Source: Anaerolineae bacterium
GTDB lineage: Bacteria > Chloroflexota > Anaerolineae > B4-G1 > SLSP01
DNA length: 34,421 nt
Direction: 5' to 3'
Assembly (NCBI GenBank): GCA_016926915.1
Contig: JAFGNR010000092.1
Location: 1-34,421 of the forward strand
A model generated the notes under the pieces. That model was not told where the DNA came from. It saw nothing but the letters and a program-made list of their open reading frames with translations, and did no database searches. This document shows positions 3,313-24,958 of the stretch, one piece after another; within the stretch, counting starts at the first letter, position 1; every line of letters begins with the position of its first letter. Made by a program: the position numbers and the translations under genes.

Positions 3313-4443
3313 TTATTCGCGAAGCCAGGAGGTGAGCTGTTGCTGTGCGTCCCATGCGGCGCGGCTACGGCGCTCGCCCCGCAGCAATTGCCACAAGGTA
3401 GGCCCGTGGTGTTTGATTAGCATGAAAGGCCGGCGTAGATAGAAGCCGATCCGCTGTGCAAATGTAAGGTTTTTCCGGTTTTCGGGGGCGCCCAGTAACA
3501 ACAAACCGGCGTATGACAGCCACCCTTTCAGGCTCTTGTCGGGTAGGTCGCGCCAGAACTTGGGCGTGCGCGCCAGCATCTCGCCCGAAACCATTTGCCG
3601 GGCGAGCGTCAAGACATCCGGGCGTGGCTGTGGAAACAGCACGGTAATGGCATCAGGGTAAGGTTCATTCCAGAACCAGGCCGCAAGCGCCAACGTCAGC
3701 CCCACGCTTTTCGAGAGGCCGGCGGTGTCTGCTGCGTCGTGAAGGGTTTTCCAGTGACCCGGTTCCCAGTCCTGCGTCCAGAAGCGAACATCGGCTAGAG
3801 GGCCTAGCCCCACTGAAAGTTGGTGGTGATCGGTCTGGTGGTAGATCAGGTAGAGCAGGTGAGTAACAGCGTTCAATGTGAGTAGGCCGGGGTATTGGTT
3901 CCAGGGCGCAAGCTTTTCCTGCACCTCTGCGAGTGTGAAGAAGGCCCGTCCCCGGTCGTGGGCCAGCGCCGTGTGCAGTTCCAACCGGTAGCCTTGACCC
4001 GCCGGTATCAAGGGAGGGAGATGCAGGCCACGATCTCCCTGGACCAGTGTCCGGTAGCCTGCCTCGTGAAGCGCTTCCAGCAGGCGTGCAACGTCCTCCG
4101 GCGCGACCAACAGGTCGAGATCATTATAGCTGCGCTGCGCCGGATCTGGGTATCGCGCAGCGACGACCGGCCCTTTGACGCAGGCGATGGGAATGCTGAG
4201 GGTTTGCGCTACGTGTGCCAGGTGTTCGAGTTGTTTGTGGGCCAGCGCCTGTCGGGCCGCTTCTTCGAAGCGCTCTCGTATCGCGCCGCGCCGTATCTCT
4301 TCCGGTAGATTCCATCCTTTTTGTTTGGCTCGCCAGGGCAGCAATGCCAGGAGGCGGTGGGCCCTGGCCCAGGCCAGGAATGCCGAATCGGGAATATCGG
4401 ATTTGCCGGACCACCACCAGGCTAGGGAGCTCGGGGTTTCCAT
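3313..4443 (-). CDS. Nucleotidyltransferase family protein (PF14907/NTP_transf_5-like)
   Basis: IACVKGPVVAARYPDPAQRSYNDLDLLVAPEDVARLLEALHEAGYR: KG plus DLDLLV arrangement typical of this family. Confidence 0.75.
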   Translation of the reverse strand: METPSSLAWWWSGKSDIPDSAFLAWARAHRLLALLPWRAKQKGWNLPEEIRRGAIRERFEEAARQALAHKQLEHLAHVAQTLSIPIACVKGPVVAARYPDPAQRSYNDLDLLVAPEDVARLLEALHEAGYRTLVQGDRGLHLPPLIPAGQGYRLELHTALAHDRGRAFFTLAEVQEKLAPWNQYPGLLTLNAVTHLLYLIYHQTDHHQLSVGLGPLADVRFWTQDWEPGHWKTLHDAADTAGLSKSVGLTLALAAWFWNEPYPDAITVLFPQPRPDVLTLARQMVSGEMLARTPKFWRDLPDKSLKGWLSYAGLLLLGAPENRKNLTFAQRIGFYLRRPFMLIKHHGPTLWQLLRGERRSRAAWDAQQQLTSWLRE

Positions 4444-6280: not shown

Positions 6281-7600
6281 TCAACCCTTATCTTTCGCTT
6301 CAGTTGTAAAGGGTACCCCATATACACCCACTCCAGCCACGACGCCTAGAAGCGCCCATGCAATCACATGCGCGCGAGTGTAGAACGTAATCGCATCACT
6401 CAGTCCGTGAGTGCATATGACGACAATGATCCCTAGATTGCTTAACGCCAGCGGAGCCAAAGAGGAGTCTTTTGACATTGCTATGGCGCGCCAGGATAAT
6501 GCAAACAGCCCGATCAGGACGGCCGACAAACTGATCAGACCGGGAAAGCCGAGTTCGGCGCCGGTGTTGAGGAAGAGGTTGTGCAGATGCTCGATTCTAA
6601 TTGTGGGTGAAATCAGGAAAGTGGGGTACATCTGGGGGAGCACGTCGACGACTAATCCCATCCCAATGCCGGTCAAAGGGAAATCTTGTAGGATGTAAAA
6701 GGCTCTCGCCCACAGCTCTAACCGCCCTGCGAGACTGCTCAAGGCACTGGTCACGTCTGATCCCGCCTCAATCTGTGCCACGTTTGGCGGAAGATCTGCC
6801 TGTTGCAGAGCAAAAACGCTGCCAGCAGCGATAACTGTGAGTAGGAAAAGCCAACGCCAGTTTCGTGTTGCCAACATCGTCATCATAGCGATGGCGAGGG
6901 ACAGAATGGCGCCGCGTGATTGGGTTAGAAGCAGGGCCAGGATGATCAAGACGGCGTCCAGCGCGGCAAGCAGGCGTATCCATGACTTGCGTGAGATGAG
7001 CATGTAAGCCAGCGGCAGGGGCGCCAGCATTGCCAGGGTTCCACCTGCCATATTGGAATTGAAGCCGGCATATCCTTCAGCTTTCCAGAAAGGGCGGAAT
7101 AGATGTGGAAATAGGTCTATGGGCTTCCATGGCATCCAGGAGAATTTTGCGCTGCCCCAGTCTGTCCCCAATAGTACGATAGGCACCAGGGCCAGCCCCA
7201 ATATGCCGATGCCCCAGGCGCTCAATTGAAACCATCCTGTCTCTTGCAGCAGTCCTACGATGCCGTAGAAGAGCGCTATTCCTGCAATGACTTTGTAGAC
7301 TTGGGGCAGGGTCAGGAGGCGGTTTGTGGACAGCCACAGGTTGAAGGGCAGCAGCAATAGCATGACTGCGATCGAGAGATCGAGTGGTGTGCGTGATACA
7401 GGACGCCGGCCGCACAGCCAACCCAAAGCCGGCATCAGGGCAAGTCCCAACAGGGAAGCCAATTGCACGAGGGGGGACACCTGATCGGCGAAAATCAACG
7501 CGGGTAAGCAGGCCGCAATCCAGGCCAGCTGCACGCGCCCGATGTGGCCCGCAAGCCAAATTCGCCAACGTGGCATCGTAGGAGAGTGGGAGCGTCTCAC
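6281..7600 (-). CDS. O-antigen ligase/polymerase-like polytopic membrane protein (Wzy_C/WaaL type)
   Basis: Polytopic; LTQSRGAILSLAIAM and FPLTGIGMGLV...HLHNLFLNTGAELGFPGLISL motifs. Confidence 0.8.
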   Translation of the reverse strand: MRRSHSPTMPRWRIWLAGHIGRVQLAWIAACLPALIFADQVSPLVQLASLLGLALMPALGWLCGRRPVSRTPLDLSIAVMLLLLPFNLWLSTNRLLTLPQVYKVIAGIALFYGIVGLLQETGWFQLSAWGIGILGLALVPIVLLGTDWGSAKFSWMPWKPIDLFPHLFRPFWKAEGYAGFNSNMAGGTLAMLAPLPLAYMLISRKSWIRLLAALDAVLIILALLLTQSRGAILSLAIAMMTMLATRNWRWLFLLTVIAAGSVFALQQADLPPNVAQIEAGSDVTSALSSLAGRLELWARAFYILQDFPLTGIGMGLVVDVLPQMYPTFLISPTIRIEHLHNLFLNTGAELGFPGLISLSAVLIGLFALSWRAIAMSKDSSLAPLALSNLGIIVVICTHGLSDAITFYTRAHVIAWALLGVVAGVGVYGVPFTTEAKDKG

Positions 7601-11108: not shown

Positions 11109-12326
11109 ATGATCGGAGCAAAGGCAGTGCTGGTGAATAGGTGTGAAGGTTTGGAAGAAGAAATAGCGATCACCGAGGTGTTGACTCTGTGTCTCCGGGG
11201 GCGTTGGGACCTGGATGCCCGGGAAGCTGCGGCGGCTGAGCTCGCGCACTGCTGCCAAAGTTTTGCTGCCTGGCAGCAGGTTGCCGGGTCTGGGGGAATT
11301 GCGCCTTTATTGTACGACGTCCTGCGCGATAGGAACCTGGTAGCGCCGGAAATAGAGAGCTGGCTTGAACGTCTCTATTATAGCAATGGGATGCGCGTGA
11401 ATGGGTTGCTTGGCGAAGCGCGGGAGGTATTGACAGCACTTGCGAACGGCGGGATTCCGGTCATGGTACTCAAAGGATTGGCGCTGGCGGAACCGGTATA
11501 CGGCAATGCGGCACTGCGCCCGATGACGGACCTCGATTTCCTGATTGCTCGCGATGCCGCACCGCGGGCCACGGCGATTCTGCGCCAGCTCTCGTACCGG
11601 CCGTTGGAGTCAGAAGCCAGAATGGGGGCTACCCTGGCTTATGAAAACGAAGTTCTCTTGAGCAAGAATGGCGATATTGATACGCTGGTCGAGCTTCATT
11701 GGAGCTTGTTCGATTCCCCACATTACCAGCAGAACCTCGATATGCGCTGGTTCTGGGAGACGGCGCGCCCTGCGATGGTCGCGGGTGTGCCCTGTAGGGT
11801 GCTGGGGCCTGAGGCCCAATTGCTCCATCTGGCGGGCCATTTGCTGTTACACCACGGGCAGACCGCGTTCCGCCTGCTATGGATGCAGGACATTGCAGAA
11901 ATCCTGGTAGCGTATGGCGCAACGCTCGATTGGGATATGGCAATCGAGCAGGCGCAGCGTGATGATTTGGTATTGTCGTTGCAAAATGTTGTCCCATACG
12001 TGGCGGAACGCTGGCGGGTTCCTCTTCCGGATGGCGTTCTGGCGAAGGTGATGCAGCTCTGCCCTTCGACTCTCGAGACTGAACTTGTGGCTCGATTGAC
12101 TGCCGAAGCCAGGCCGGTGGCGCAACGCTTTTACACTGATCTGGTGAGTATGAAAAACTGGCGGCATCGTCTTGGCTACGCCTGGCAAAACCTTTTCCCC
12201 ACGATTGCCTATATCCGGCAGCGTTATCACGTGCGTCATGCTGCCCTGGCGCCGTTTTTCTACCCGTACCGGTGGTTACGCGGTCTATGGAGCACGCTGG
12301 GGGCGCTTTTGGGGAAGGATTTGTAG
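11109..12326 (+). CDS. Nucleotidyltransferase family protein (PF14907-like), second paralog
   Basis: IPVMVLKGLALAEPVYGNAALRPMTDLDFLIARDAAPRATAILRQLSYR aligns by eye with the 3313-4443 product. Exact start uncertain. Confidence 0.75.
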   Translation: MIGAKAVLVNRCEGLEEEIAITEVLTLCLRGRWDLDAREAAAAELAHCCQSFAAWQQVAGSGGIAPLLYDVLRDRNLVAPEIESWLERLYYSNGMRVNGLLGEAREVLTALANGGIPVMVLKGLALAEPVYGNAALRPMTDLDFLIARDAAPRATAILRQLSYRPLESEARMGATLAYENEVLLSKNGDIDTLVELHWSLFDSPHYQQNLDMRWFWETARPAMVAGVPCRVLGPEAQLLHLAGHLLLHHGQTAFRLLWMQDIAEILVAYGATLDWDMAIEQAQRDDLVLSLQNVVPYVAERWRVPLPDGVLAKVMQLCPSTLETELVARLTAEARPVAQRFYTDLVSMKNWRHRLGYAWQNLFPTIAYIRQRYHVRHAALAPFFYPYRWLRGLWSTLGALLGKDL

Positions 12327-12461: not shown

Positions 12462-12495
12462 GACTTCGACGTTGTACGATATTCGAAGTCTTTTT
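12462..12495 (+). terminator. Intrinsic terminator-like hairpin in leader (attenuator candidate)
   Basis: GACTTCGA (12462-12469) pairs with TCGAAGTC (12483-12490), followed by TTTTT (12491-12495); lies 21 nt before the ATG at 12517. Confidence 0.7.
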
Positions 12496-12516
12496 GTATA
12501 TCTGAGGATCTCAGGA

Positions 12517-13272
12517 ATGGAGAACACAACGAAGATCAGTTCCCAAATCAGCGGCGGGCCCCGGTTGTACCTTCAACGCCAGGCCAGCGGCCTCTGGCGA
12601 TACGTGTGGGAGCAGGCGCTCCAAACGATCGTCGGATGGGTGCCCACGCTGCTTGGAATTGGTCTGCGCGCGGTGTTGTACCGGTTCATGCTCAAGATGG
12701 AGGGTGTGGCTGCTATCGAGAGCGGCGTCCGGTTGCGATTTGCCCAGTACATCAAGTTGGGCAACCGGACCTACCTCGATCAGGGAACGTACATCCACGC
12801 GTGTCCCCAGGGCGTCACCCTCGGAGAGGGAACTCTGGTCATGCATGGCGCGGTGCTGCACGTGTATAACTTCCGTGGTCTGCCGCATTCCGGTATTTAC
12901 GTTGGACGAGATAGTTTGATCGGCGAGTATACCGTGATTCGCGGGCAGGGTGGGGTCACACTTGGGGATCGCGTTTATACTTCACCCATGGTGCAGATTA
13001 TTGCTGTCAATCACGTCTTTGACGATCCGGAACGTCCTTTTTCTGAACAGGGGATCACTGCTCAGGGTATAATCATCGAGGACGATGTTTGGATTGGGTC
13101 CGGGGCGGTGATCACCGATGGGGTGCGCGTCGGGCAGGGAGCGGTGATTGCCGCCGGCGCGGTGGTGACACAGGATGTCCCAGCCCATGCGGTGGTGGGG
13201 GGGGTGCCGGCCCGCCTGATACGAAAGATCGATGGTACGGCGCCTGCATCACGGGGTGAGATTTTCTTCTAG
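12517..13272 (+). CDS. Left-handed beta-helix acyltransferase (maltose O-acetyltransferase/WcaF-like)
   Basis: Hexapeptide repeats: [17 protein letters not shown]...[57 protein letters not shown] at 12517 with GAGGA upstream. Confidence 0.92.
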
Positions 13273-13325: not shown

Positions 13326-14561
13326 GTGGTAGACGTGCAAACAGAGTGTGTTCAAGTGGGATCGGAGGCTTTGCTTTCGGTCGTCATTCCGGCTTACAAC
13401 GAAGAGGACGGCATTGCGGCCATCGTCGAACGCGTGTTGGCGGTCAAGCCCGCGTTGGCAGAGATCGGATTGGGCCTCGAGTTGCTCGTCGTCGACGATG
13501 GCTCATCGGATCGCACGGCGGAGATTGTGCAGCACTATGAGGATGTCGGTTTGCTTCAGCACAAACCCAACAAGGGGTATGGCGCTGCCATCAAAACCGG
13601 TTTCTGTGCCGGAAAGGGGGAATTTCTGGCTTTCCTGGATGCCGATGGCACCTATCCTCCCGAATCATTGCCGGACCTGTGCCGGGAGGCGCTGCAGGGT
13701 GCAGATGTGGTGGTTGGATCACGCCGCTCTGGTGCGGAAAGCCATATGCCGTTCGTGAGAAAATTGGGTAACTTTCTCTGGGCCAACCTGGTTACGTTAC
13801 TCAGCGGGCAGCGCGTTGTCGATCCGGCCAGTGGGATGCGCGTGGTGCGCCGTGAGGCCCTGGCACGACTCTACCCACTTCCCGATGGATTGAACTTCAC
13901 TCCGGTGATGAGCACCCGCACAGTTCACGAGGGCCTCAAACTGGTTGAAATCCCCATGCCTTATGAGGAGCGGAGCGGGCGTTCCAAGCTCAGCGTGGTG
14001 GAGGACGGCCTCCGCTTTCTGCGAACTATTCTCTGGACGGCATTATATTATAACCCTGCGCGCATTCTGGGGGGGATCGGCGTGACGCTTTTCGGCGCCG
14101 GTTTGCTGATCGGGCTGGTCATCGTGGGGATGCGCTTGTTCGGCGTCACGCGGTTGGGGCCGGTTGGGGTCACGGGGACCTTTGCGGCTGTGGTGTTGGG
14201 CGTAGCCGGTTTCGACCTTTTCGCCTTGGGAGCGACCTTCAATTACCTAGTAGCGCTGTTTCACGAAGACCCGGTGCAACCCGGGCTCTTTGGAAGGCCG
14301 ATTTTCGACCCCCCGTTGGACCAGCATTTCTGGTGGATGGGTCTCCTGGCCTCGGCGGCCGGCTTTGTTGTGGGGCTTGTAAGTTTGATTCTGGGTCTCA
14401 ACGGGTGGGCTATCGAGCGCTTGTGGCTCTATATGCTCGGGGGAACTATGCTGCTGTTGCTGGGGGTTCAACTGTTTGTATTCTGGGTCATCATGCGCGT
14501 TCTCGAAGAGCTGAGTCGCCGTGACGTGATGATTCAAGCAGATTTGGAGCCTCTGGCGTGA
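13326..14561 (+). CDS. GT2 glycosyltransferase with C-terminal membrane segments (DPM1/GtrB-like polyprenyl-phosphate glycosyltransferase)
   Basis: SVVIPAYNEEDGIAAIVERVL, LLVVDDGSSDRTAEIV, FLDADGTYPPESLPDL; hydrophobic C-terminal half. Confidence 0.9.
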   Translation: MVDVQTECVQVGSEALLSVVIPAYNEEDGIAAIVERVLAVKPALAEIGLGLELLVVDDGSSDRTAEIVQHYEDVGLLQHKPNKGYGAAIKTGFCAGKGEFLAFLDADGTYPPESLPDLCREALQGADVVVGSRRSGAESHMPFVRKLGNFLWANLVTLLSGQRVVDPASGMRVVRREALARLYPLPDGLNFTPVMSTRTVHEGLKLVEIPMPYEERSGRSKLSVVEDGLRFLRTILWTALYYNPARILGGIGVTLFGAGLLIGLVIVGMRLFGVTRLGPVGVTGTFAAVVLGVAGFDLFALGATFNYLVALFHEDPVQPGLFGRPIFDPPLDQHFWWMGLLASAAGFVVGLVSLILGLNGWAIERLWLYMLGGTMLLLLGVQLFVFWVIMRVLEELSRRDVMIQADLEPLA

Positions 14562-16240
14562 ACGAGACACCGTACAATCTGGGTCGCAAGACCCAACCTC
14601 GCGTGCCCGAACCGGATTTTCCCAATACAGATGCCTTGTTACGCGCGCAGATGGACGGGCGCCCATCGGGTGCTGTCGATGTGCTGTTGGTCAATCCTCC
14701 CGCGCCGGATGGCGGTATCTGGATTCGCAGCCAGCATCGTGTCGGACGCCGGTCCCGGGAAGGGATGATCTGGCCCCAGGTGAGTCTGGCGCAGATGGCG
14801 GCGTTGTTCCCGGATTACCGTGTGGAGGTGGTTGATGCGATACCCCACCGGATGGGATGGGAGGCGTTCGAACGTATCCTGGATGAGAAGCGCCCGCGCT
14901 ACTATGTTACACAAGTGACCGCGCCTACGTTGCAGAATGATATGTATGGCGTCTTTCTCGCGAGAGCACGCGGTGCGAAGACCATTGCCTTTGGCACTCA
15001 TGTGACGCCAATGCCGGCTTCTACGATGGAGTCCTATCCCGCTCTGGATTACGTCCTGCGCGGCGAGCCGGAGCTGGCATTACGAGAATTGGTGGATACG
15101 TTGGATGTTCTCCAAGGCCACAAAGAACCGCGCGGAAGAGATCTGAAGGCTGTCTCTTTGTGGCCGGACACCGAGAAGGCATTTGCCGAACGACTCTTGA
15201 GGTTATTCGCCGGAGCCGATCCCGGCTGGCAACCGGCGTGGTTGGATATTGAGAGTGGGACGGTGAAAACGGGCCTGGCGCGGATCAAGGGGCTGGTCTG
15301 GCGCAAAGAGGGACAGGTCATGGTGAATGCGGATCGGGGATTCATAAAGGATCTCGACGATCTTCCTCTGCCGCGCCACGAACTGCTGCCTCTGTCCAAA
15401 TACCGCGCCCCTCTCGTTGGCGGCCCCTATGCATTCGTTGTATCGAGCCGGGGGTGTCCTGCCGCGTGCCGGTTCTGCATCAAGCATGTTTCCTATGGCA
15501 GTTCGGTTCGCTATCGCTCGCCGGAACACGTCCTGGAGGAAATTCAGGATCTCGTCGATTTGGGCATTCGCAAGATTCACATGTATACGGATCTGTTTAC
15601 AGTGAGTCGGGATCAGGTGCTGGGAATCTGTGAAGGGATTCTCGAACGACAGCTTCCCGTGAAGTGGACTTGCAACAGCCGGGTGGACTATGTGGATGAG
15701 GAGATGCTGCACATGATGCGACGCGCCGGTTGTTGGATGATTTCGTGGGGTATCGAGTCGGCGGATCCTCAGATGTTGAAACGGATGCGCAAGGGGATCA
15801 CCCCCGAAAAAGTCGCGCGCGCGCTCCGGTGGGCAAAGCAAGCCGGGATTATGAATTGGGGATATTTCATTATCGGCTTACCCGGTGAGACTGAGGAGAG
15901 TATTCGCAAGACGATTGACTTCTCGAAACGGCTGCCGCTCGACCTGGTACTGTTTCACATCGCAGCGCCGCACCCGGGGACGCCCTTTTTCTTCGAGGTG
16001 GTAGAGAATGGCTGGTTCAGACCGGGGACCCGCTGGGAAGAGGTCGATATGGATCGTTCGACGGTGTTGGATTATCCCAATCTCAAGGCTGAGGATTTGG
16101 AGCGCTGGGCCAAGCGGGCATTCCGGGAGTGGGCCTTTCGCCCCGGTCCTATGTTGACTTACCTGCGGTTGCTGCTATCCGATCCTACCTTGTTGCGCTC
16201 GGCTGTGCACATTGGTCTGGAGACCTTGGGATGGGTATGA
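14558..16240 (+). CDS. Cobalamin-binding-domain radical SAM protein
   Basis: N-terminal VDVLLVNPPAPDGG...LAQMAALFPDYRVEVVDAIP...TVTAPTLQND-type B12-binding domain; CPAACRFC (CX3CX2C) cluster motif; GIESADPQMLKRMRKGITPEKV, GYFIIGLPGETEESI. GTGA overlap with upstream stop. Confidence 0.9.
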   Translation: MNETPYNLGRKTQPRVPEPDFPNTDALLRAQMDGRPSGAVDVLLVNPPAPDGGIWIRSQHRVGRRSREGMIWPQVSLAQMAALFPDYRVEVVDAIPHRMGWEAFERILDEKRPRYYVTQVTAPTLQNDMYGVFLARARGAKTIAFGTHVTPMPASTMESYPALDYVLRGEPELALRELVDTLDVLQGHKEPRGRDLKAVSLWPDTEKAFAERLLRLFAGADPGWQPAWLDIESGTVKTGLARIKGLVWRKEGQVMVNADRGFIKDLDDLPLPRHELLPLSKYRAPLVGGPYAFVVSSRGCPAACRFCIKHVSYGSSVRYRSPEHVLEEIQDLVDLGIRKIHMYTDLFTVSRDQVLGICEGILERQLPVKWTCNSRVDYVDEEMLHMMRRAGCWMISWGIESADPQMLKRMRKGITPEKVARALRWAKQAGIMNWGYFIIGLPGETEESIRKTIDFSKRLPLDLVLFHIAAPHPGTPFFFEVVENGWFRPGTRWEEVDMDRSTVLDYPNLKAEDLERWAKRAFREWAFRPGPMLTYLRLLLSDPTLLRSAVHIGLETLGWV

Positions 16241-18987
16241 AAACGCGTGCGACTATGTGTTCGAGTCTGGCCCGGATCGAGGTTGGAATGTTCAAGAGCT
16301 GGTTCCGCATGTTGGAAATCGCTGTCCTGGCGGCGGTGCTCCTTGCACCGCTTAGCGCCGGCGCTCAATCTGATGACCTGGTGTGGAGTGACCCGGTCAA
16401 CCTCTCCCAATCGGGTGCGGCAAGTGCACCGGTCATCGCCGGCGGATCCGAGGGGAGCCTACAAGTCTTCTGGCAGGATCGTTTCGATGGGTTGGTGACG
16501 GCACGGTATCAGGCGGGGACCTGGTCTGCGCCGGTTCCGGCGCCTCTACAAAGAGTTGTCATTACCGAGGAAGCAGAACGGCTGGTAGCTGTAGGGACCA
16601 TGCCGGAGATGGCGGCAGACAGCAATGGGCGGGTGCATGCGTGGTGGCTTGGTAACCCTAATCCCGAGACGGGCTACCGGCCTTTATGGCATAGCTGGAT
16701 CGCCATTGGAGAGACAGTCTGGCTGGCGCCGGATCTCGTCGCCGAATCCGCAGTGGCATGGGATATGGTCTCAGATGAAGATGGGATGTTGCACATCTTC
16801 TACGTGCGGCCCGCGCATACCGAGCAGTTCCCGGCAGGCATCTACCACAAACGCTCCACAGATGGCGGCGCTACGTGGTCGACTCCCAGTTTGATCGCTG
16901 CTTCGGTCTATTTTCGCCTGTTGGAAGAGGAGGAGGCTTACGTTGTGGGCGCCGCCGACGCATTGGGAAACGTGTTTGTCGTATGGGATGATGCCCAGAC
17001 GGGTTTTTCTCATTATGCTGCTTCCACTGATGGCGGTGTTTCCTGGAATGCACCGGAACGTGTGGGGGATGATCAGGTTGAGGCGCGCCATGCGTTCATT
17101 GTGACGGACCGTCAAGAAGACGCGGCCGGAGAGGTCACGGGAAGCCAGATAGTGTTACTTTGGGAAGTCGTGCGGACGACGACCGTTTGTGCTGTCTACC
17201 AACAGACTGTAGAGGCGGCAGCCGGGGCCCCGTTGCCGACCTGGACGGATCCTATCCGCGTCCTGGACGATTTCGCGGTATGCGGCGAGACCTACGCGCT
17301 GCAACGGACAGCATCCGGCAATCCTATGTTGGTCAGTGGCGCGGGTGGAGATGGCCTGAGTGTCGTTCTGTGGAATGGCGTACAATGGTCGGAGCCCCAG
17401 CATCTGTTATTTGGCTTCTTCGAGCCGGTGACCCAGTCCGGGATTCGTCTGGGATCCTTGAATTTGACCGTATCGGGTGATCGGCTCGCCGTTGTAGGTT
17501 TGGGTGATGATCAGGAGGTGTGGGTGTTACAGTCAGAGCCTGAGCCTGACAGCTGGGCCTTTGCGCCTTCAACTCCCTGGACCGATCCCCAGCCGGTTCT
17601 GGCCGCATTGCTGCCCGATCTTCCGGTCCTGACAGTAGATGACGGAGGGACTGCACACGCTTTGTGGAGTCAGTCTGCGGCGCCCGGTGAGACCGGATAT
17701 GCTTTGTTCTATAGCCAGCCTGAGACTGTTGTCGGGGCCGCGGCGGAGGCGGCGTGGACCCAGCCTGTGGCGCTGCTCGATTCTCCGATCGGAAAAGCGG
17801 AACAGCCGGACTTACTGGAAGCCGGCGGGCAGCTGCATGCCGTGTGGAGCGGCGGTTTTGACGGCGAGATCTTGTACAGTCGTGCATTCGTCCGGGACGT
17901 CTACGCAGCGGATGGTTGGAGCATCCCCATGAAGTTGCACGCCGGTATCGCGCGCGACCCCCAGCTGGTCGCCGGGCCTGAAGGTCAGATTTTCGTGGCC
18001 TATGCAGTGCCTTTCAACGAATCTCGGGGCGTGTATCTCACCCGTTCCGGTGATGGTGGACAGAACTGGTCGGAGTCGTTTACGGTGTTCGATGCTGTCG
18101 CGGGCGGCTGGGTTTCATCCGGGCACGTGGCGCTGGATGTCGATGACCAGGGCGGGGTTCACGTCGCCTGGGTTCGGCTGCGATTGCCGGGCAATGGGCT
18201 TCCTGAAGGGGTCTATTACGCGTATTCCCAGGATGAGGGCAAGACCTGGACATCTCCGGTAGAGATTGCGGCGGGCGCCTATGACTGGCCTCAAGTGGTT
18301 GTCGCCGGGGAGACGGTGCACGTGCTGGCGGTGCGTGTGGATGGTGAAAGCGGCGTGTGGCAGCGGCGCACTGTGGATGGAGAAAGCTGGTCGCCTCTCG
18401 ACGTTGTACCCGGCGTAGGCGAAGTCCAGGGGCGCGCGGCGGCCGTTGCCGACGTTGCCGGCGGTGTGCATTTGGTCGCCGTGGGAGCCGGTGAGAGTGG
18501 TGATACGTCCCTCGTCTATACGGTTTGGCAAGAGGAACAGTGGCGTACCGTGGAGACGATTCGTCTGATGGGCGCGCACCAACATCAAGGCGCGGGGGCG
18601 TCGGCGGACGTGCGGAGTGACTTGGGGCGGTTGGACGTCCTTTTCGTCACGCATACGATCCCCGATGGTTCGCAGACTCCGCTGCATGAACGCACGCTCT
18701 GGTACGCGCGGCGCGAGATCGCGGCGATTGCCGGCATTCCTGAAGCCACGACTGCGGAGCCAGTGACTCCAACCGTAGCTGTGACTGCGGAGCCGACATC
18801 GCTTGCTCCCACACCCACGCCCCGTCCCGATGTCAATCCCAATGCTGTGACGGGGAGCATGCCGGCGATTTCTTTGGGACCTATCACGGTGCCGTTGTTG
18901 GCCCTGTTTGGCTTTGCCGGCGCCGGTGTGTTGGTGGTCGTCGCGCTGGCGGCGCGTTTCGCCAAGACTAGCGCGAGGCGTCGCTAG
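16237..18987 (+). CDS. Secreted, C-terminally membrane-anchored Asp-box/sialidase-like beta-propeller protein
   Basis: Signal peptide (MLEIAVLAAVLLAPLSAGAQS), four Asp boxes (STDGGATW, STDGGVSW, SGDGGQNW, SQDEGKTW), Thr/Pro linker TPTPRPDVNP, TM helix, basic tail AKTSARRR. ATGA overlap at 16237; alternative start at 16288 with GAGG upstream. The track start 16129 overlaps the previous gene and is not preferred. Confidence 0.85.
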   Translation: MKTRATMCSSLARIEVGMFKSWFRMLEIAVLAAVLLAPLSAGAQSDDLVWSDPVNLSQSGAASAPVIAGGSEGSLQVFWQDRFDGLVTARYQAGTWSAPVPAPLQRVVITEEAERLVAVGTMPEMAADSNGRVHAWWLGNPNPETGYRPLWHSWIAIGETVWLAPDLVAESAVAWDMVSDEDGMLHIFYVRPAHTEQFPAGIYHKRSTDGGATWSTPSLIAASVYFRLLEEEEAYVVGAADALGNVFVVWDDAQTGFSHYAASTDGGVSWNAPERVGDDQVEARHAFIVTDRQEDAAGEVTGSQIVLLWEVVRTTTVCAVYQQTVEAAAGAPLPTWTDPIRVLDDFAVCGETYALQRTASGNPMLVSGAGGDGLSVVLWNGVQWSEPQHLLFGFFEPVTQSGIRLGSLNLTVSGDRLAVVGLGDDQEVWVLQSEPEPDSWAFAPSTPWTDPQPVLAALLPDLPVLTVDDGGTAHALWSQSAAPGETGYALFYSQPETVVGAAAEAAWTQPVALLDSPIGKAEQPDLLEAGGQLHAVWSGGFDGEILYSRAFVRDVYAADGWSIPMKLHAGIARDPQLVAGPEGQIFVAYAVPFNESRGVYLTRSGDGGQNWSESFTVFDAVAGGWVSSGHVALDVDDQGGVHVAWVRLRLPGNGLPEGVYYAYSQDEGKTWTSPVEIAAGAYDWPQVVVAGETVHVLAVRVDGESGVWQRRTVDGESWSPLDVVPGVGEVQGRAAAVADVAGGVHLVAVGAGESGDTSLVYTVWQEEQWRTVETIRLMGAHQHQGAGASADVRSDLGRLDVLFVTHTIPDGSQTPLHERTLWYARREIAAIAGIPEATTAEPVTPTVAVTAEPTSLAPTPTPRPDVNPNAVTGSMPAISLGPITVPLLALFGFAGAGVLVVVALAARFAKTSARRR

Positions 18988-19007
18988 CTGCCGCGCGCTT
19001 CCAATGG

Positions 19008-19013
19008 TATAAT
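19008..19013 (+). promoter_or_regulatory. Putative extended -10 promoter element (TGGTATAAT) for leaderless transcript
   Basis: TGG at 19005-19007 followed by TATAAT 19008-19013; ATG begins at 19020; no Shine-Dalgarno. Confidence 0.5.
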
Positions 19014-19019
19014 ATTCGT

Positions 19020-20450
19020 ATGTTTACCCAGATCAAGGTAGGTCTACTCGTTTCACTCCTTGCCGGCGGTTTGTTGTTTCCGCCGGTAAGTAGCATGCAA
19101 AACCTCTCGCCTGATTGGAGCGACCCTCAGCTGATAGCCAGGGTCGACGGGCAACTGGCGGTTTCCACGATTGCTCTCGTTGCAGACCGCGCCGGTCAGC
19201 TGCATCTTTTCTATCCTTCAAGTCCAGACGAAATGACTGCCGATGGGATCGATTATGCCCGTTGGGATGGCCGTGGCTGGTCACATCCGGTTAACATCCT
19301 GGTGTCTGCCAGCGGCAACGATCTGTCTCATGTGCAAGCGGTCATCGATTCGGAGCAATTCATTCACCTGATCTGGCAAGATGGCAATAACACCCTGCGC
19401 TACGCGAGCGCACTCAGCACGGCGGCAGACCAGCCTCAGGCCTGGTCGTTCTCCGAATCTCTTGCCGGTGGGGTGTTGGGCGCGCATCTCATCAGTGATG
19501 GGTTGGGGAATCTTTTCGTGGCGTATAGCGACGCCACAGCCGGCGGGCGTGGCCTCACGCTGACCGCCTCGGCGGATGGCGGCGAGCAGTGGTCGGCGCC
19601 GTTTGCGGTTGCGTCTAGCCACGGGTTTGACAGCGTGATAGGGCAGGTGCGTCTCGCTTCGGGCGGGAAAGGTCAACTTCACGTCGTCTGGACCGAGTAT
19701 AAGATTCCTGACGGTTGGCCACCCTTGGGGGTCTTCTATACCAGATCATCTGACGATGGGGCCGCCTGGGCCGCGCCGGAACGGATCGCCGACATAGATC
19801 ACGGTCAAGTCGGTATTGCGGCGGCGGATGATCAGGTCCACCTGATATGGCGCAGCACGATTGGCGGCGACGGCACTTTCCATCAGTGGTCACTTGATGA
19901 GGGCGAGAGCTGGTCTGCATTCGAACTCCAGGATGATCGCGGGGGATTCTCCGGCCTGCCGTCGTTGGTTTGGGACAGCCGGGGCGTGTTACATTACCTG
20001 GTGGGATCCGGTTTTGCCGGTGCGTGGACTGCCGACGCCGGCACGGCGTACTACGTCGATGTAGCAGGCTATGAGCTACGACGGGGTATTGGTCAAGATA
20101 CCCGGTGGACGCAACCTGAACGGGCTGTTATGGAAATCGTCAACGGGAATCAACTCCATGTGATCTTCGAGACCGGCTTCAATCGCCTTTGGCATACATT
20201 CACCACCGTGGATGCACCGGCAATCCCTTCGGAACCTCTGCCCACGGCGATCCCGACAGCAACGCCCGTAGCAACGCCCACCCCAGAAGACGCTGATTCA
20301 ACAGCGTTGCCTGCCTATGAACTCGATGATGCGACGCCGCTGGATGCATCTTACTCCGGCGCCGACTGGACTTCTGTTATTGGGCCGGGCGCTGCAACGT
20401 TGTTGGTGGTCTCGATTGTGGTGTGGCGTTCTACGCGCAGGAGGCGATAA
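19020..20450 (+). CDS. Second secreted, C-terminally anchored Asp-box/sialidase-like beta-propeller protein
   Basis: Signal peptide, Asp boxes (SADGGEQW, SSDDGAAW, SLDEGESW), linker AIPTATPVATPTPEDADS, TM helix, tail RSTRRRR. Confidence 0.83.
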   Translation: MFTQIKVGLLVSLLAGGLLFPPVSSMQNLSPDWSDPQLIARVDGQLAVSTIALVADRAGQLHLFYPSSPDEMTADGIDYARWDGRGWSHPVNILVSASGNDLSHVQAVIDSEQFIHLIWQDGNNTLRYASALSTAADQPQAWSFSESLAGGVLGAHLISDGLGNLFVAYSDATAGGRGLTLTASADGGEQWSAPFAVASSHGFDSVIGQVRLASGGKGQLHVVWTEYKIPDGWPPLGVFYTRSSDDGAAWAAPERIADIDHGQVGIAAADDQVHLIWRSTIGGDGTFHQWSLDEGESWSAFELQDDRGGFSGLPSLVWDSRGVLHYLVGSGFAGAWTADAGTAYYVDVAGYELRRGIGQDTRWTQPERAVMEIVNGNQLHVIFETGFNRLWHTFTTVDAPAIPSEPLPTAIPTATPVATPTPEDADSTALPAYELDDATPLDASYSGADWTSVIGPGAATLLVVSIVVWRSTRRRR

Positions 20451-20453
20451 CCG

Positions 20454-21341
20454 GTGAAGGATCCCGTGAAATCCCGTCCATTTGCGGCAGCGGCGATGGA
20501 CAATGTCCTGAATCCGGAAGGTTTCTCCGGTGTAGTCATCCAACCATCTCGCGGGTGGGGAGGACTGCCGCTTGGCGAGGTTTGGCGCTTTCGCGAATTG
20601 GTTTTCTTCCTCGTCTGGCGTGATCTGAAAGTCCGCTATCGCCAGAGCGTGTTGGGGGCTTTGTGGATCATTATCCAACCTCTGGTTACCATGGCTGTTT
20701 TCTCCTTGATTTTCAACCGTTTTCTGGGCATTGATTCCGGAAACGATGTGCCCTATCCTGTTTTTTCTTATACAGCGTTGTTGCCGTGGATGTACTTCTC
20801 CAACTCTCTGTCGCGCTGTTCGAACTCCCTGGTGGGGAATGCGGCCCTGATTTCCAAAATCTATTTCCCGCGTTTGATCGTTCCTCTGTCAGCTGTCTTG
20901 CCCGGTCTGGTGGATTTCCTCATTGCGTTTGTAATTCTGCTCGGAATGCTGCTGTATTATGGCATCTGGCCCGGGTGGGCCATCTTAACCCTGCCTTTGC
21001 TGTTGTTGCTGGCAATGATCACCACACTGGGTGTGGGGTTGTGGCTTTCGGCGCTCAACGTCCAATACCGGGATGTGCAATATATCACGCCCTTTTTGAT
21101 CCAGGTCTGGATGTATGCAACGCCTATTATCTATTCGACGTCGCGGATTCCTGAACGCTGGCTCTGGCTGTATAATCTGAACCCCATGGTGGGGGTTGTG
21201 CAGAGTTTCCGCCGTATTCTGCTCAACGATCAGAGTTTTGGCGGTGTCAGCTGGCCCTCCCTGGCGATCGCCCTTGTCATTCTGGTCTCCGGTCTGATCT
21301 ATTTTCGCCAGACCGAACGCATCTTCGCCGACGTGGTGTAG
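20454..21341 (+). CDS. ABC-2 type polysaccharide exporter permease (Wzm/KpsM/TagG-like)
   Basis: FLVWRDLKVRYRQSVLGALWIIIQPLVTMAVFSLIFNRFLGID...YTALLPWMYFSNSLSRCSNSLVGNAALISKIYFPRLIVPLSAVLPGLVDF; AGGAGG upstream of GTG. Confidence 0.95.
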   Translation: MKDPVKSRPFAAAAMDNVLNPEGFSGVVIQPSRGWGGLPLGEVWRFRELVFFLVWRDLKVRYRQSVLGALWIIIQPLVTMAVFSLIFNRFLGIDSGNDVPYPVFSYTALLPWMYFSNSLSRCSNSLVGNAALISKIYFPRLIVPLSAVLPGLVDFLIAFVILLGMLLYYGIWPGWAILTLPLLLLLAMITTLGVGLWLSALNVQYRDVQYITPFLIQVWMYATPIIYSTSRIPERWLWLYNLNPMVGVVQSFRRILLNDQSFGGVSWPSLAIALVILVSGLIYFRQTERIFADVV

Positions 21342-21348
21342 GTGAGAC

Positions 21349-22590
21349 GTGAGCGCCGTTGCCATTCGTTGTGAGAAAATCGCCAAACGTTATCGTATTG
21401 GCGTGGGCCGTCACGATACGCTGCGCGACCAGATCGCAGAGGGGGTTTCGCGACTCTTTCAGCCTGCTAAAGGCGGTGAAGCGCCGGGAACCCTGTGGGC
21501 GCTCCGGGATGTTTCTTTCGAGGTTCAAGCCGGCGAGGTGGCCGGCATCATCGGCCGGAATGGCGCCGGAAAAAGCACCTTGCTCAAAATCCTTTCGCGG
21601 ATCACTGAACCGACCCAGGGACGGGCTGTGTTGTTCGGTCGCGTGGGTTCTCTTCTAGAAGTGGGCACGGGCTTTCATCCGGAGCTTACCGGTCGTGAGA
21701 ACATTTTCTTGAATGGTGCGATTCTCGGCATGCGTCGCGAGGAAATCCAGCAGAAGTTCGACGAAATCGTAGCATTTTCGGAAATCGAGCGTTTTCTCGA
21801 TACGCCGGTGAAGCGTTATTCGAGCGGTATGTACGTGCGGCTGGCTTTCGCAGTCGCCGCGCATCTGGAACCGGAAATCCTGTTAGTCGATGAAGTGCTG
21901 GCCGTGGGTGACGTCGCGTTCCAGAGGAAGTGCCTGGGGAAGATGGGAGAGGTCGCCGGCGAGGGACGCACGGTGCTTTTCGTAAGTCACAATATGGCGG
22001 CGGTGCAGGCGCTGTGCACGCGCGGTATTTTTCTGAGGAAGGGCACTATCTGGTTTGATGGCTCGATCAATGATACGATCTCGACCTATCTTCGCACGTT
22101 GGAAGAGATCCCTGGTCAGGACCTTGCGGAGCGCGTCGAGCGGCGCGGCAAGGGGGCGCTCCGTTTGACGCGGGTGGAGATCTCTGAGGGTGAGACAATG
22201 CCGGCGGGTATTCTGGCGGCAGGCCGTCCGGCGCAGTTTTCTTTTTACCTTACCGGCACACGTTCCGATCTGACGTGCACCTTTACGATCTACGACCAGT
22301 ATGGAAAGCCGGTGGCGAATTTCAACAGCGCGACGTTAGGCCCTGAGGACGTCTATGATGCTGCATTTGGTCCAAGGATTACGTGTGAGCTGGATGAGCT
22401 GCTGCTGGCGCCTGGACGTTATCGCATCAACGTTGCGCTGACTGCGGGAAATGAACTGGAAGATCATCTCGAAGGCGCGGCTTTCTTCGACGTCGATCCC
22501 GGTCAGCTCCGGGGGCGGCCGGTACATGCCCACTCGAAATATGGAGTAGTGACGATGCCGCACCGGTGGAAAGTTCCCCTTGATTTGTGA
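21349..22590 (+). CDS. Polysaccharide ABC exporter ATPase with C-terminal Wzt_C-like glycan-binding domain
   Basis: Walker A GRNGAGKSTLLKILSRI, signature YSSGMYVRLAFAVAAHLEPEILLVDEVLAVGD; beta-rich C-terminal extension of ~170 aa. Confidence 0.95.
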   Translation: MSAVAIRCEKIAKRYRIGVGRHDTLRDQIAEGVSRLFQPAKGGEAPGTLWALRDVSFEVQAGEVAGIIGRNGAGKSTLLKILSRITEPTQGRAVLFGRVGSLLEVGTGFHPELTGRENIFLNGAILGMRREEIQQKFDEIVAFSEIERFLDTPVKRYSSGMYVRLAFAVAAHLEPEILLVDEVLAVGDVAFQRKCLGKMGEVAGEGRTVLFVSHNMAAVQALCTRGIFLRKGTIWFDGSINDTISTYLRTLEEIPGQDLAERVERRGKGALRLTRVEISEGETMPAGILAAGRPAQFSFYLTGTRSDLTCTFTIYDQYGKPVANFNSATLGPEDVYDAAFGPRITCELDELLLAPGRYRINVALTAGNELEDHLEGAAFFDVDPGQLRGRPVHAHSKYGVVTMPHRWKVPLDL

Positions 22591-23726
22591 GGTATGAAGT
22601 GTGGGATAGGGTGCGTCGCGGGTATTCGAGGCTTCGCCGCCTGGCAAACAAGGAGCGCTCTCCGGAAATGACAGCGTTGCCGTTGGGGGAGGCGTGGCGG
22701 CGTCTGGTTGCGACCGCCAATCGCCGCCAATTGTCATCTCCTCCCGTTCGCGTGGATATGCAAGGCGCTCCTGATGCCCGGCAGCGGTTCAGTTGGACTG
22801 CGGCGCTTAGCGCCCTGGGCGCCGAAGTCTGTCACAGAACCTCGGGAGATGCCCGCGAACTGGCCGCGCTTCGCCAGCTGTATGATCGGATCATCGATCA
22901 GCGTGGCGTGTGGCAAATCCCGGTAAACCGCGTGGAACACGTGATGATCGGGTATACACTTCTGTATCTTGAGGAGATGACGGGTGAATCGCGTTACGGG
23001 CGCGCCGCTGCTTGCTTGGTCGAGATGTTGAACGACTATCCACGGGCCGCCGATGGTTCGCTGCCGTATTTGCCGCATACCCAGCTGGTGCTCGTGGATA
23101 CACTGGCGATGCTCTGCCCGTTCTTGGCGCGGTATGCAACCATGCATCACGTTGCAACGTTGTTGGACCTGGCGACGGCGCAGCTGCGCACCTTCGTGGC
23201 TCACAATGTGGATGCAGAGACGTCGCTGCCTTACCATGGCTACTACGCGGATGGCCCCCGGTATTTGGGGCTGCATGGTTGGGGACGGGGCACGGGGTGG
23301 TATTTGCTGGGCTTGATCGATACGTTGGTTGAATTGCCGGCGTCGCATTCGGCCCACGCCGATCTTGCCGCGGTATTCGCGCGTGCTGCGGAGACGGTGC
23401 GGGACTGCCAGCGACAAGATGGCCACTGGCACTGGGCGATCCTGCACCGCGCCGATCACACTGATAGCTCGACGACCAGCCTAATAGGCTACAGTCTTAT
23501 GCGCGCCATCCAGGCAGGGATACTGGACGACGGCTTTCTACCGACCGTGACACGGGCGGTTCAAGCATTGGTGGGGGTCACCCGCATCGATGGCATGCTC
23601 GATGGCGCGCTGGGGGAGTCGCGTGGCCTGGGAAAATATCCGCAGCAGTATGGCCCGCGTCCCTGGTTGCAGGGCTCGGCGACAGCTCTGGGGGCGCTCT
23701 ATCTTCAAGAAACGAGAATGACATGA
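22587..23726 (+). CDS. GH88/GH105-like (unsaturated glycuronyl hydrolase-like) (alpha/alpha)6 protein
   Basis: RQLYDRIIDQRGVWQIPVNRVEHVMIGYTLLYLEEMTG, LPHTQLVLVDTLAMLCPFLARYA, LHGWGRGTGWYLLGLIDTLVELP, WHWAILHRADHTDSSTTSLIGYSLMRAIQAGIL. GTGA/ATGA overlaps with both neighbours. Confidence 0.7.
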   Translation: MRYEVWDRVRRGYSRLRRLANKERSPEMTALPLGEAWRRLVATANRRQLSSPPVRVDMQGAPDARQRFSWTAALSALGAEVCHRTSGDARELAALRQLYDRIIDQRGVWQIPVNRVEHVMIGYTLLYLEEMTGESRYGRAAACLVEMLNDYPRAADGSLPYLPHTQLVLVDTLAMLCPFLARYATMHHVATLLDLATAQLRTFVAHNVDAETSLPYHGYYADGPRYLGLHGWGRGTGWYLLGLIDTLVELPASHSAHADLAAVFARAAETVRDCQRQDGHWHWAILHRADHTDSSTTSLIGYSLMRAIQAGILDDGFLPTVTRAVQALVGVTRIDGMLDGALGESRGLGKYPQQYGPRPWLQGSATALGALYLQETRMT

Positions 23727-24958
23727 CTGCCAACATCGTGATCACCGGCATTACGGGATTCCAGAACCGTGGCGTCGAGGCCATCGTGGCGCCCACTGTG
23801 CGACAGTTCCGCCAGCGGCGTACGGACATCAAGATTCAGGTTCTTACATATACTCCTGATTACGACACGTATCGCCTGCCCGAGGCGGACGCCCACTTCA
23901 TCGCGAATGATTTTCGATTGCCCAACACCAGCCTTACTTTCCGGGCGCGACGGTGGCTGGCCCGTATCCGTGGCAAGCCTCCGGCGCCTCAGGAGGGACA
24001 AGCCAATGCGCTGCTGCGCGCGGCGAATCTGGTGTTGGCGTCGGGAGGAGATGTGTTCAGCTCCGAATATGGCAACTTGCCCTGGCATTTGCAACCCTTG
24101 CGCTATGCCCAGAAACACGGCGTCCCCGTCGTGTTCTGGGCGCAGTCTATCGGCCCTTTCCATACCGGTGCAGAAGCGGCGACCTGGCTTGAGGTGGCGC
24201 AGGCATCACCTCTGATTACCGTCCGTGAGTCGCTCACCTATGCCTACGTGACCGGCCAGTTGGGCCTTTCTGGGGATCGCGTGCACCTCACGGCCGATCC
24301 GGCGTTCCTGCTTGAACCTCCGGAGCTGGGGGTTATTGCCAGGGTGCTGGAGTCTTACGGCATTCCCCGTGAGGGTCCACTTATTGCTCTCTCGATTAGT
24401 CAAGGGATCAGCGGCTTCTCAGGCACGGATGCGGACTCACATTTCGAAGCCTGGCGCAAGGTCATTCTCTCGTTGTTGGATCAGACGGAGGCGCACTTAC
24501 TGTTGATCCCGCACGTTCAGACGGGAGCGCTGCGCAACAACGATCGCCTGATTGTAACGGAGATGGCGCGCAGTTTGGAGTACCCTGCCCGGTTGCACAT
24601 TATAGGTGGGGAGCATTCGGCCAGCACATTCAAGGGGCTGATCGGCGCCTGCGATTTCGTGATCGCCGAGCGGATGCACGCGGCCCTGGCCGGCCTATCT
24701 AGTGGTGTGCCGACCATGGTGGTCGGTTACAGCGTCAAAGCACAGGGTATCATGACCGATATGGTCGGCTCGGACCTGGTCGACGCTGGTTGGGTGACGC
24801 CGGTCCAGACGTTCGTAACCGAGCCCACCGTGGAGCAATGCATCCTTCAGCATTGGGAGGCGCGGCAAGTCGTTCGTGAGCGTCTCGCGACGTCTCTACC
24901 TGAGACGCGCGCCCGGGCTCTGGCGAATTTCGATCTCCTGGAGACGGTGTTGTCGTGA
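23723..24958 (+). CDS. Polysaccharide pyruvyl transferase family protein (PF04230-like)
   Basis: NIVITGITGFQNRGVEAIVAPTVRQFR, VLASGGDVFSSEYG, VPVVFWAQSIGPF, CDFVIAERMHAALAGLSSGVPTMVVGYSVKAQGIM. Confidence 0.88.
   Translation: MTANIVITGITGFQNRGVEAIVAPTVRQFRQRRTDIKIQVLTYTPDYDTYRLPEADAHFIANDFRLPNTSLTFRARRWLARIRGKPPAPQEGQANALLRAANLVLASGGDVFSSEYGNLPWHLQPLRYAQKHGVPVVFWAQSIGPFHTGAEAATWLEVAQASPLITVRESLTYAYVTGQLGLSGDRVHLTADPAFLLEPPELGVIARVLESYGIPREGPLIALSISQGISGFSGTDADSHFEAWRKVILSLLDQTEAHLLLIPHVQTGALRNNDRLIVTEMARSLEYPARLHIIGGEHSASTFKGLIGACDFVIAERMHAALAGLSSGVPTMVVGYSVKAQGIMTDMVGSDLVDAGWVTPVQTFVTEPTVEQCILQHWEARQVVRERLATSLPETRARALANFDLLETVLS

Follow-up and report, generated by a model that had tools for sequence, protein, structure and literature searches.

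Introduction

What does a radical enzyme do in a locus devoted to the export of surface polysaccharide? The question is raised by a stretch of 34,421 nucleotides from an Anaerolineae bacterium (contig JAFGNR010000092.1 of assembly GCA_016926915.1; the whole stretch is called the window below), in which a gene for a radical S-adenosylmethionine (radical SAM) enzyme follows a family 2 glycosyltransferase (GT2) gene and is itself followed by two genes for Asp-box beta-propellers and by the exporter genes wzm and wzt. The analysis described here places the radical SAM gene in a conserved trio with the GT2 gene and an upstream gene for a hexapeptide acyltransferase (hexAT), and we lean towards the view that this unit supplies a surface polysaccharide with a lipid-linked sugar that has been remodelled and acylated. 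The genome holding the window consists of 4.3 Mb in 460 contigs, and its nearest relatives point to a Thermoflexus-like member of the Chloroflexota as host.

An earlier, sequence-only reading of this DNA had grouped the GT2, the radical SAM enzyme and the two propellers into one module. The four open reading frames lie where that reading put them (Table 1), the second propeller does precede the exporter, and the two overlaps it described can be read in the sequence, GTGA (14558-14561) joining the GT2 and radical SAM genes and ATGA (16237-16240) joining the latter to the first propeller gene. The true start of the module is one gene earlier, at the hexAT gene, which had been overlooked.

A conserved trio of genes

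The core of the module is the hexAT-GT2-radical SAM trio and not the GT2-radical SAM pair. An initial set of loci was found in named genome contigs by peptide patterns of the radical SAM protein alone, so that selection was blind to the neighbouring genes. A GT2 gene (product 51-73% identical) precedes the radical SAM gene in all 46 initial loci with at least 1.3 kb of upstream sequence, and a hexAT gene (47-79% identical to window 12472-13272) is present in all 38 with at least 4 kb, lying upstream in 36. Addition of loci from a survey of the host's class, an even sample of 298 genomes, gave 86 unique loci; among the 68 non-window loci that have 4 kb or more of upstream sequence, the GT2 gene is upstream in 67 and the hexAT gene in 64.

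The class survey found the radical SAM gene in 103 genomes, the GT2 gene in 106 and the hexAT gene in 99; the radical SAM gene co-occurs with the GT2 gene in 93 and with the hexAT gene in 90, and all three are found in 85. The Fisher P for co-occurrence of the radical SAM and GT2 genes is about 1e-50, a value inflated by the relatedness of the genomes. These two genes share contig and strand in 86 genomes, always with the GT2 gene first, and the gap between them is 0-1638 bp in 83 of the 86. The proposal of a module had been staked on a recurrent association of exactly this kind, and it survives that test. The counts come from translated searches and include fragments, the contigs of these metagenome-assembled genomes being fragmented, and orthology was called, by the analyst's choice, from about 47% identity upwards or for clear fragments. 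Radical SAM matches at 38-44% identity were assigned to other families and excluded; in the neighbourhoods of three of them (L121, L124 and L125) neither the GT2 nor the hexAT of the trio adjoins. At around 60% identity the trio is found in roughly one in three of the class genomes sampled, and it is scattered in Acidobacteriota and Deltaproteobacteria.

Several departures from this arrangement were also seen. The trio is split in one single-contig genome (G010; L126, 4567-13841), with genes for DUF11, esterase and Laminin_G secreted proteins between the GT2 and radical SAM genes. Locus L119 (3285-6399) carries a different radical SAM family, about 31% identical and resembling the hopanoid enzyme HpnJ (discussed below), with a 39%-identical GT2 lying two genes upstream of it, and the pairing of GT2 with radical SAM genes may therefore be wider than the trio's own radical SAM family. 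Pairs of hexAT and GT2 genes without a radical SAM gene lie at L191 (9533-14115) and L192 (8893-10882), the former outside any polysaccharide locus, with a two-component system and a PAC2 protein as its neighbours.

The radical SAM family

The radical SAM proteins of the trio are a new monophyletic family, nearest to HpnJ by profile and nearest to AprD4 by fold. Across 32 orthologs the mean column identity is 67%, and both C300, C304 and C307 of the CxxxCxxC motif and G146-x-H148-x-T150 of a B12-type loop are invariant. The earlier description of the window protein as a B12-radical SAM enzyme is borne out in its second half by the Pfam match, the CxxxCxxC motif and a fold match to the TIM-barrel core; the B12 label stems from a sub-threshold match to the B12-binding domain PF02310 (25.7 bits, below the cut-off of 32.1) and the conserved Rossmann loop, and the AlphaFold2 model has Rossmann-type secondary structure at the N-terminus.

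The window protein falls below every NCBIfam cut-off, with 218 bits against the 577.6 required for HpnJ (TIGR03471), 142 for BchE, 134 for ApyD, 121.5 against 500 for AprD4 (NF033070) and 117-118 for the methylase models MgmA/TIGR04014, PhpK and Sden_1168. These models also come out on top for each of the 32 members, the best HpnJ E-value being 1.1e-68, and none comes near a cut-off. In a maximum-likelihood tree, 33 members, including sequences from Chloroflexota and Acidobacteriota and one deltaproteobacterial sequence, form a single clade (100/100); a true HpnJ (L089) and a relative (L090) join near this clade, at a weakly supported fork (89/86) with long branches. The profile and neighbourhood comparisons also place the orthologs outside any characterised housekeeping family, so that the sequence-only reading passes the second test it had set itself. 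Among Acidobacteriota the family turns up sporadically, in 2 of 199 genomes sampled (the centre genome included), a distribution that fits horizontal transfer.

Foldseek searches with the AlphaFold2 model (mean pLDDT 85) ranked AprD4 first (TMt 0.82), then TsrM, MgmA and OxsB, with CysS and TokK also after AprD4. AprD4 (PDB 6fd2), a 1,2-diol dehydratase whose substrate is an amino sugar, is the nearest solved structure by sequence as well (5.7e-32), at 22% identity. It differs from the window protein in acting on a soluble aminoglycoside together with AprD3, and the sequence alignment shows that it lacks the G-x-H-x-T Rossmann loop; retention of this loop in the trio's family favours cobalamin binding, without proving it.

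The closest parallel to the trio as a whole is the HpnI-HpnK-HpnJ pathway, in which N-acetylglucosamine is added to bacteriohopanetetrol, deacetylated and converted to a cyclitol ether (PMC12583986). Both sets combine a GT2, an acetyl-editing enzyme and a radical SAM enzyme, of class-B B12 type in the Hpn set and putatively so in the trio; the substrate of the Hpn enzymes is a lipid-linked amino sugar, and HpnJ is the nearest curated profile. However, the trio's radical SAM enzyme forms its own clade well below the HpnJ cut-off, its GT2 resembles ArnC and DPMS and matched no HpnI model, its third member is an acyltransferase whereas HpnK is a deacetylase, and its setting is a polysaccharide locus and not a hopanoid locus. 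Squalene-hopene cyclase is missing from the window's host genome; in the 20 other family-bearing genomes searched, a full-length cyclase was found in two (G301 and G317) and none that was convincing in 18. Genome G301 has a true HpnJ (710 bits) and a radical SAM gene of the trio family as separate genes. Assignment of the window protein as an HpnJ or hopanoid enzyme was rejected on the cut-off, the missing cyclase and the tree, and HpnJ is kept as a mechanistic analogue; the likeness to the Hpn trio may serve as a working principle, not as a sign of membership.

The glycosyltransferase and acyltransferase partners

The nearest solved relatives of the GT2 are ArnC (9bhc; 1.4e-24, the best PDB match) and DPMS (5mlz), and NCBIfam models of the AglJ/ArnC type match below their cut-offs. 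Conserved features include VDDGSxD, DADGTYPPE, RxGRSKL, a motif containing FNY and C-terminal hydrophobic helices. With ArnC, GtrB and DPMS, enzymes that make polyprenyl-phosphate sugars for glycan modification, the protein shares the GT2 fold, the DxD and RxGxSK-type motifs and the C-terminal transmembrane helices, and polyprenyl phosphate is its predicted acceptor; it differs from them as a distinct sequence clade tied to the hexAT and radical SAM genes.

For the hexAT the nearest solved relatives are maltose and galactoside acetyltransferases. Its 23 aligned orthologs have a mean identity of 62% and an invariant catalytic-type histidine, His181 (VNHVFD), which together with the hexapeptide repeats marks it as a putative sugar O-acetyltransferase. 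Its true start is likely to be at 12517.

The polysaccharide locus

The coordinates of the module and of its neighbours are given in Table 1. The exporter has the ABC2_membrane permease and the ATPase with Wzt_C domain of a Wzm/Wzt system, and by Pfam the remaining window genes are those of a polysaccharide locus: an aminotransferase, Polysacc_synt_2, Wzy_C proteins, several GT1 and GT2 genes, a pyruvyl transferase, GH88 and a deacetylase. In its Wzm, Wzt with Wzt_C, GT1/GT2 genes and Wzy_C ligases the locus resembles those for ABC-dependent O-polysaccharide; it departs from the standard loci in the extra hexAT-GT2-radical SAM unit and the surface propellers, and the hosts are mostly Chloroflexota.

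Table 1. Genes of the module and its neighbours, by position in the window
Feature	Position	Strand	Size and matches
Wzy_C-type O-antigen ligase/polymerase, apart from the trio	6281-7600	-	Pfam Wzy_C 8.9e-22; ligase profile 130 bits
hexAT, left-handed beta-helix (hexapeptide) acyltransferase, MAA/WbbJ-like	12472-13272	+	Pfam Hexapep 1.1e-15
GT2, polyprenyl-phosphate glycosyltransferase (DPMS/ArnC/AglJ type, predicted), hydrophobic C-terminal segments	13326-14561	+	411 aa; Pfam Glycos_transf_2 7.6e-30
Radical SAM enzyme with CxxxCxxC at 300-307 and a B12-type Rossmann domain (predicted) at the N-terminus	14558-16240	+	560 aa; Pfam Radical_SAM 2.3e-27
Double Asp-box beta-propeller, signal peptide and C-terminal transmembrane anchor (predicted)	16237-18987	+	916 aa from ATG at 16237; BNR_2
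Single Asp-box beta-propeller, signal peptide and C-terminal transmembrane anchor (predicted), directly before wzm	19020-20450	+	476 aa; BNR_2 1e-9
Wzm-type ABC-2 permease	20454-21341	+	Pfam ABC2_membrane 1.5e-21
Wzt-type ATPase with Wzt_C domain	21349-22590	+	Pfam ABC_tran and Wzt_C

Gene calls relied on codon usage and on profile searches in all six frames, a length-based caller having given antisense artefacts ("cluster 3"). The recurrent order among the loci is hexAT, GT2, radical SAM, a Wzy_C/TPR ligase (about 600 aa), the double propeller (about 900 aa), sometimes the single propeller (about 500 aa), Wzm and Wzt. The ligase had escaped the sequence-only reading; in many relatives a Wzy_C/TPR protein comes directly after the radical SAM enzyme, whereas the window's Wzy_C ligase stands apart from the trio. 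In 48 loci the downstream sequence extends for 7 kb or more; of these, 20 have a ligase within 3 kb, 20 a propeller within 7 kb and 18 Wzm, and at least one of the three is found in 29.

Three loci of one genus (L194, 7207-15697; L196, 421-8757; L197, 6270-14612) have the order GT2, Wzy_C/TPR ligase, Wzm and Wzt without hexAT and radical SAM genes, and in place of the propeller a secreted protein roughly 970 aa long, with weak, sub-cut-off DUF5060 matches in two of the three. They look like a naturally occurring "unmodified" form of the locus, as would be expected if the radical SAM enzyme were a modification step.

In the window, a GH88-family gene overlaps wzt and a gene for a CsaB-like polysaccharide pyruvyl transferase comes immediately after wzt (22587-24958), a combination hinting at a pyruvylated glycan that contains uronic acid. 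Two genes for PF14907 "uncharacterised nucleotidyltransferases" lie on either side of the locus (3313-4443 on the reverse strand and 11109-12326 on the forward strand), and L044 has a 45%-identical homologue close to its trio.

The predicted surface propellers

The description of both downstream proteins as anchored Asp-box propellers agrees with their BNR_2 matches and Asp boxes (STDGGATW and others). Each protein is hydrophobic at its N-terminus and has a further hydrophobic segment, with Arg-rich residues after it, at its C-terminal end; this hydropathy pattern predicts a location outside the cell and a membrane anchor. The AlphaFold2 model of the double propeller is all-beta (pLDDT 77.9), with a pTM of 0.54 that leaves its domain packing unsure. 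Foldseek ranked a PL27-type Rha-GlcA lyase, PLL lectins and sialidases best, at 9-17% identity. The downstream proteins share the propeller fold of PL27-type L-Rha-alpha-1,4-D-GlcA lyase, of PLL lectins and of the GH33 sialidases, and differ from these in their low identity (14-17%), in having two propellers in tandem with a C-terminal transmembrane anchor, and in their unmatched catalytic residues; in the GH33 comparison, Asp boxes are present and a sialidase-like fold is among the matches, and a counterpart of the Arg triad and Tyr/Glu nucleophile pair was not identified. With no catalytic set matched, lectin, lyase and hydrolase are all still candidate roles for the double propeller, in whose second domain the invariant Y589, N594 and R597 are a possible binding or active site.

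The double propeller occurs in 34 of the 298 class genomes; the radical SAM gene is present in 32 of these, on the same contig in 27 (Fisher P about 1e-14, relatedness not corrected). The double propeller is a recurrent, optional partner of the radical SAM enzyme, an association looser than that with the GT2. Treatment of the propellers as core parts, as in the sequence-only reading, was rejected, since a profile search, which superseded an earlier tblastn count of 7 loci, places them in just 20 of the 48 loci with sufficient downstream sequence. The single propeller adjoins Wzm/Wzt in the trio loci of the window, L049, L148, L151, L152 and L159. It is also found directly or closely upstream of Wzm/Wzt in L171, L173, L181 and L183, where no trio is nearby, which suggests a separate association of this propeller with the exporter.

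A model for the module, and its alternatives

From these genes, their conservation and linkage and their enzyme families we infer a substrate, a reaction, an order of steps and a role for the propellers. On the inner side of the membrane, the GT2 would charge polyprenyl phosphate with a sugar taken from a nucleoside diphosphate (NDP) donor. The 5'-deoxyadenosyl radical of the radical SAM enzyme would abstract hydrogen from the sugar, whether already lipid-bound or still part of the NDP-sugar, and the carbon skeleton of the sugar would be remodelled, with C-methylation or deoxygenation as alternative outcomes. For a sugar bound to a lipid the precedent is HpnJ, which makes a cyclitol from the glucosamine head group of bacteriohopanetetrol. 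The hexAT would then acylate a hydroxyl or amino group, and the unit would be flipped and, by way of the Wzy_C/TPR ligase and Wzm/Wzt, be attached as a cap or as a side group to the exported glycan, which the anchored propellers might bind, trim or sort outside. The module reading draws support from the linkage of the three genes, from the active-site motifs of the GT2, the histidine of the hexAT and the two motifs of the radical SAM enzyme, and from the repeated polysaccharide-locus setting; it also gains from a top profile (HpnJ) and a top fold (AprD4, a radical enzyme acting on an amino sugar). A radical SAM-modified lipid-linked sugar, as proposed earlier, is thus the best reading, though a conjectural one, and the earlier proposal is supported in part: the propellers, which more than half of the loci do without, are not core.

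Several observations pull the other way. No biochemical datum was found for any member of the radical SAM family, and the HpnJ match of the window protein reaches about a third of the cut-off, a score that other HpnJ-like radical SAM proteins in these genomes equal or exceed; homology is therefore no guide to the reaction. AprD4, first by fold, is a diol dehydratase. Action on the product of the GT2 is deduced from linkage, which alone falls short of showing action, and genomes G234 and G254 have hexAT and GT2 genes without the radical SAM gene, outside a Wzm/Wzt locus.

If the module reading is right, HpnJ-like skeletal rearrangement stands slightly ahead among the candidate reactions, followed by C-methylation and then by AprD4-like dehydration. 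C-methylation is the commonest reaction of B12-type radical SAM enzymes, and a cobalamin-dependent C-methyltransferase with an outcome like that of GenK or Fom3, giving a branched or C-methylated polysaccharide sugar with no ring rearrangement, is a serious though minority possibility. The C-methylases TsrM, MgmA, CysS and TokK rank after AprD4 by fold and the B12 loop is retained, but the methylase models score far below that for HpnJ and the B12-binding domain match is sub-threshold. A B12-independent sugar dehydratase or deoxygenase, yielding a deoxy-sugar, would suit the position of AprD4 as closest solved structure by both sequence and fold; it is nonetheless unlikely given the loop that AprD4 lacks, the low AprD4 profile score and the lack of an AprD3-type reductase among the annotated neighbouring genes. 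Quite improbable, in our view, is a role for the radical SAM enzyme and the hexAT on the head group of a membrane lipid (a hopanoid or terpenoid, for instance), which would make their place among polysaccharide genes secondary. HpnJ, the nearest profile, does act on a glycosylated hopanoid, but most of the family-bearing genomes searched have no convincing squalene-hopene cyclase, G301 encodes its HpnJ and the trio enzyme as separate genes, and the trio genes recur beside ligase and Wzm.

The propellers, for their part, could be abundant Chloroflexota surface proteins placed near the trio by chance. The 28 of 48 loci with no propeller within 7 kb would fit such an origin, as would the single propellers beside exporters that have no trio nearby. 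Against it, nearly all genomes with a double propeller have the radical SAM gene, mostly on the same contig; three of the remaining copies, on short broken contigs (L186, L187 and L190), still lie in the order ligase-propeller-Wzm, and the host's genome has only one further BNR_2 match, a weak one. Chance placement was already disfavoured and is very improbable.

Conclusions

We found no description of this module in the open-access papers searched, and it appears to be undescribed, yet assembled from known kinds of enzymes. In its most specific form the reading has the radical SAM enzyme rearrange a sugar carried on polyprenyl phosphate, for example to a carbocycle, before this sugar is acylated and incorporated into a surface glycan. 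That would be a previously unknown modification, and we put it forward as a speculation, more doubtful than the general reading. Retention of the trio at about 60% identity across lineages points to a product that these lineages keep. If the radical SAM enzyme does act on lipid-linked sugars, a radical SAM step would lie within a lipid-carrier glycan pathway and radical chemistry would enter the assembly of cell-surface glycans; the family would then offer a tractable system for learning what decides among ring contraction, dehydration and methylation in enzymes of the HpnJ and AprD4 kinds.

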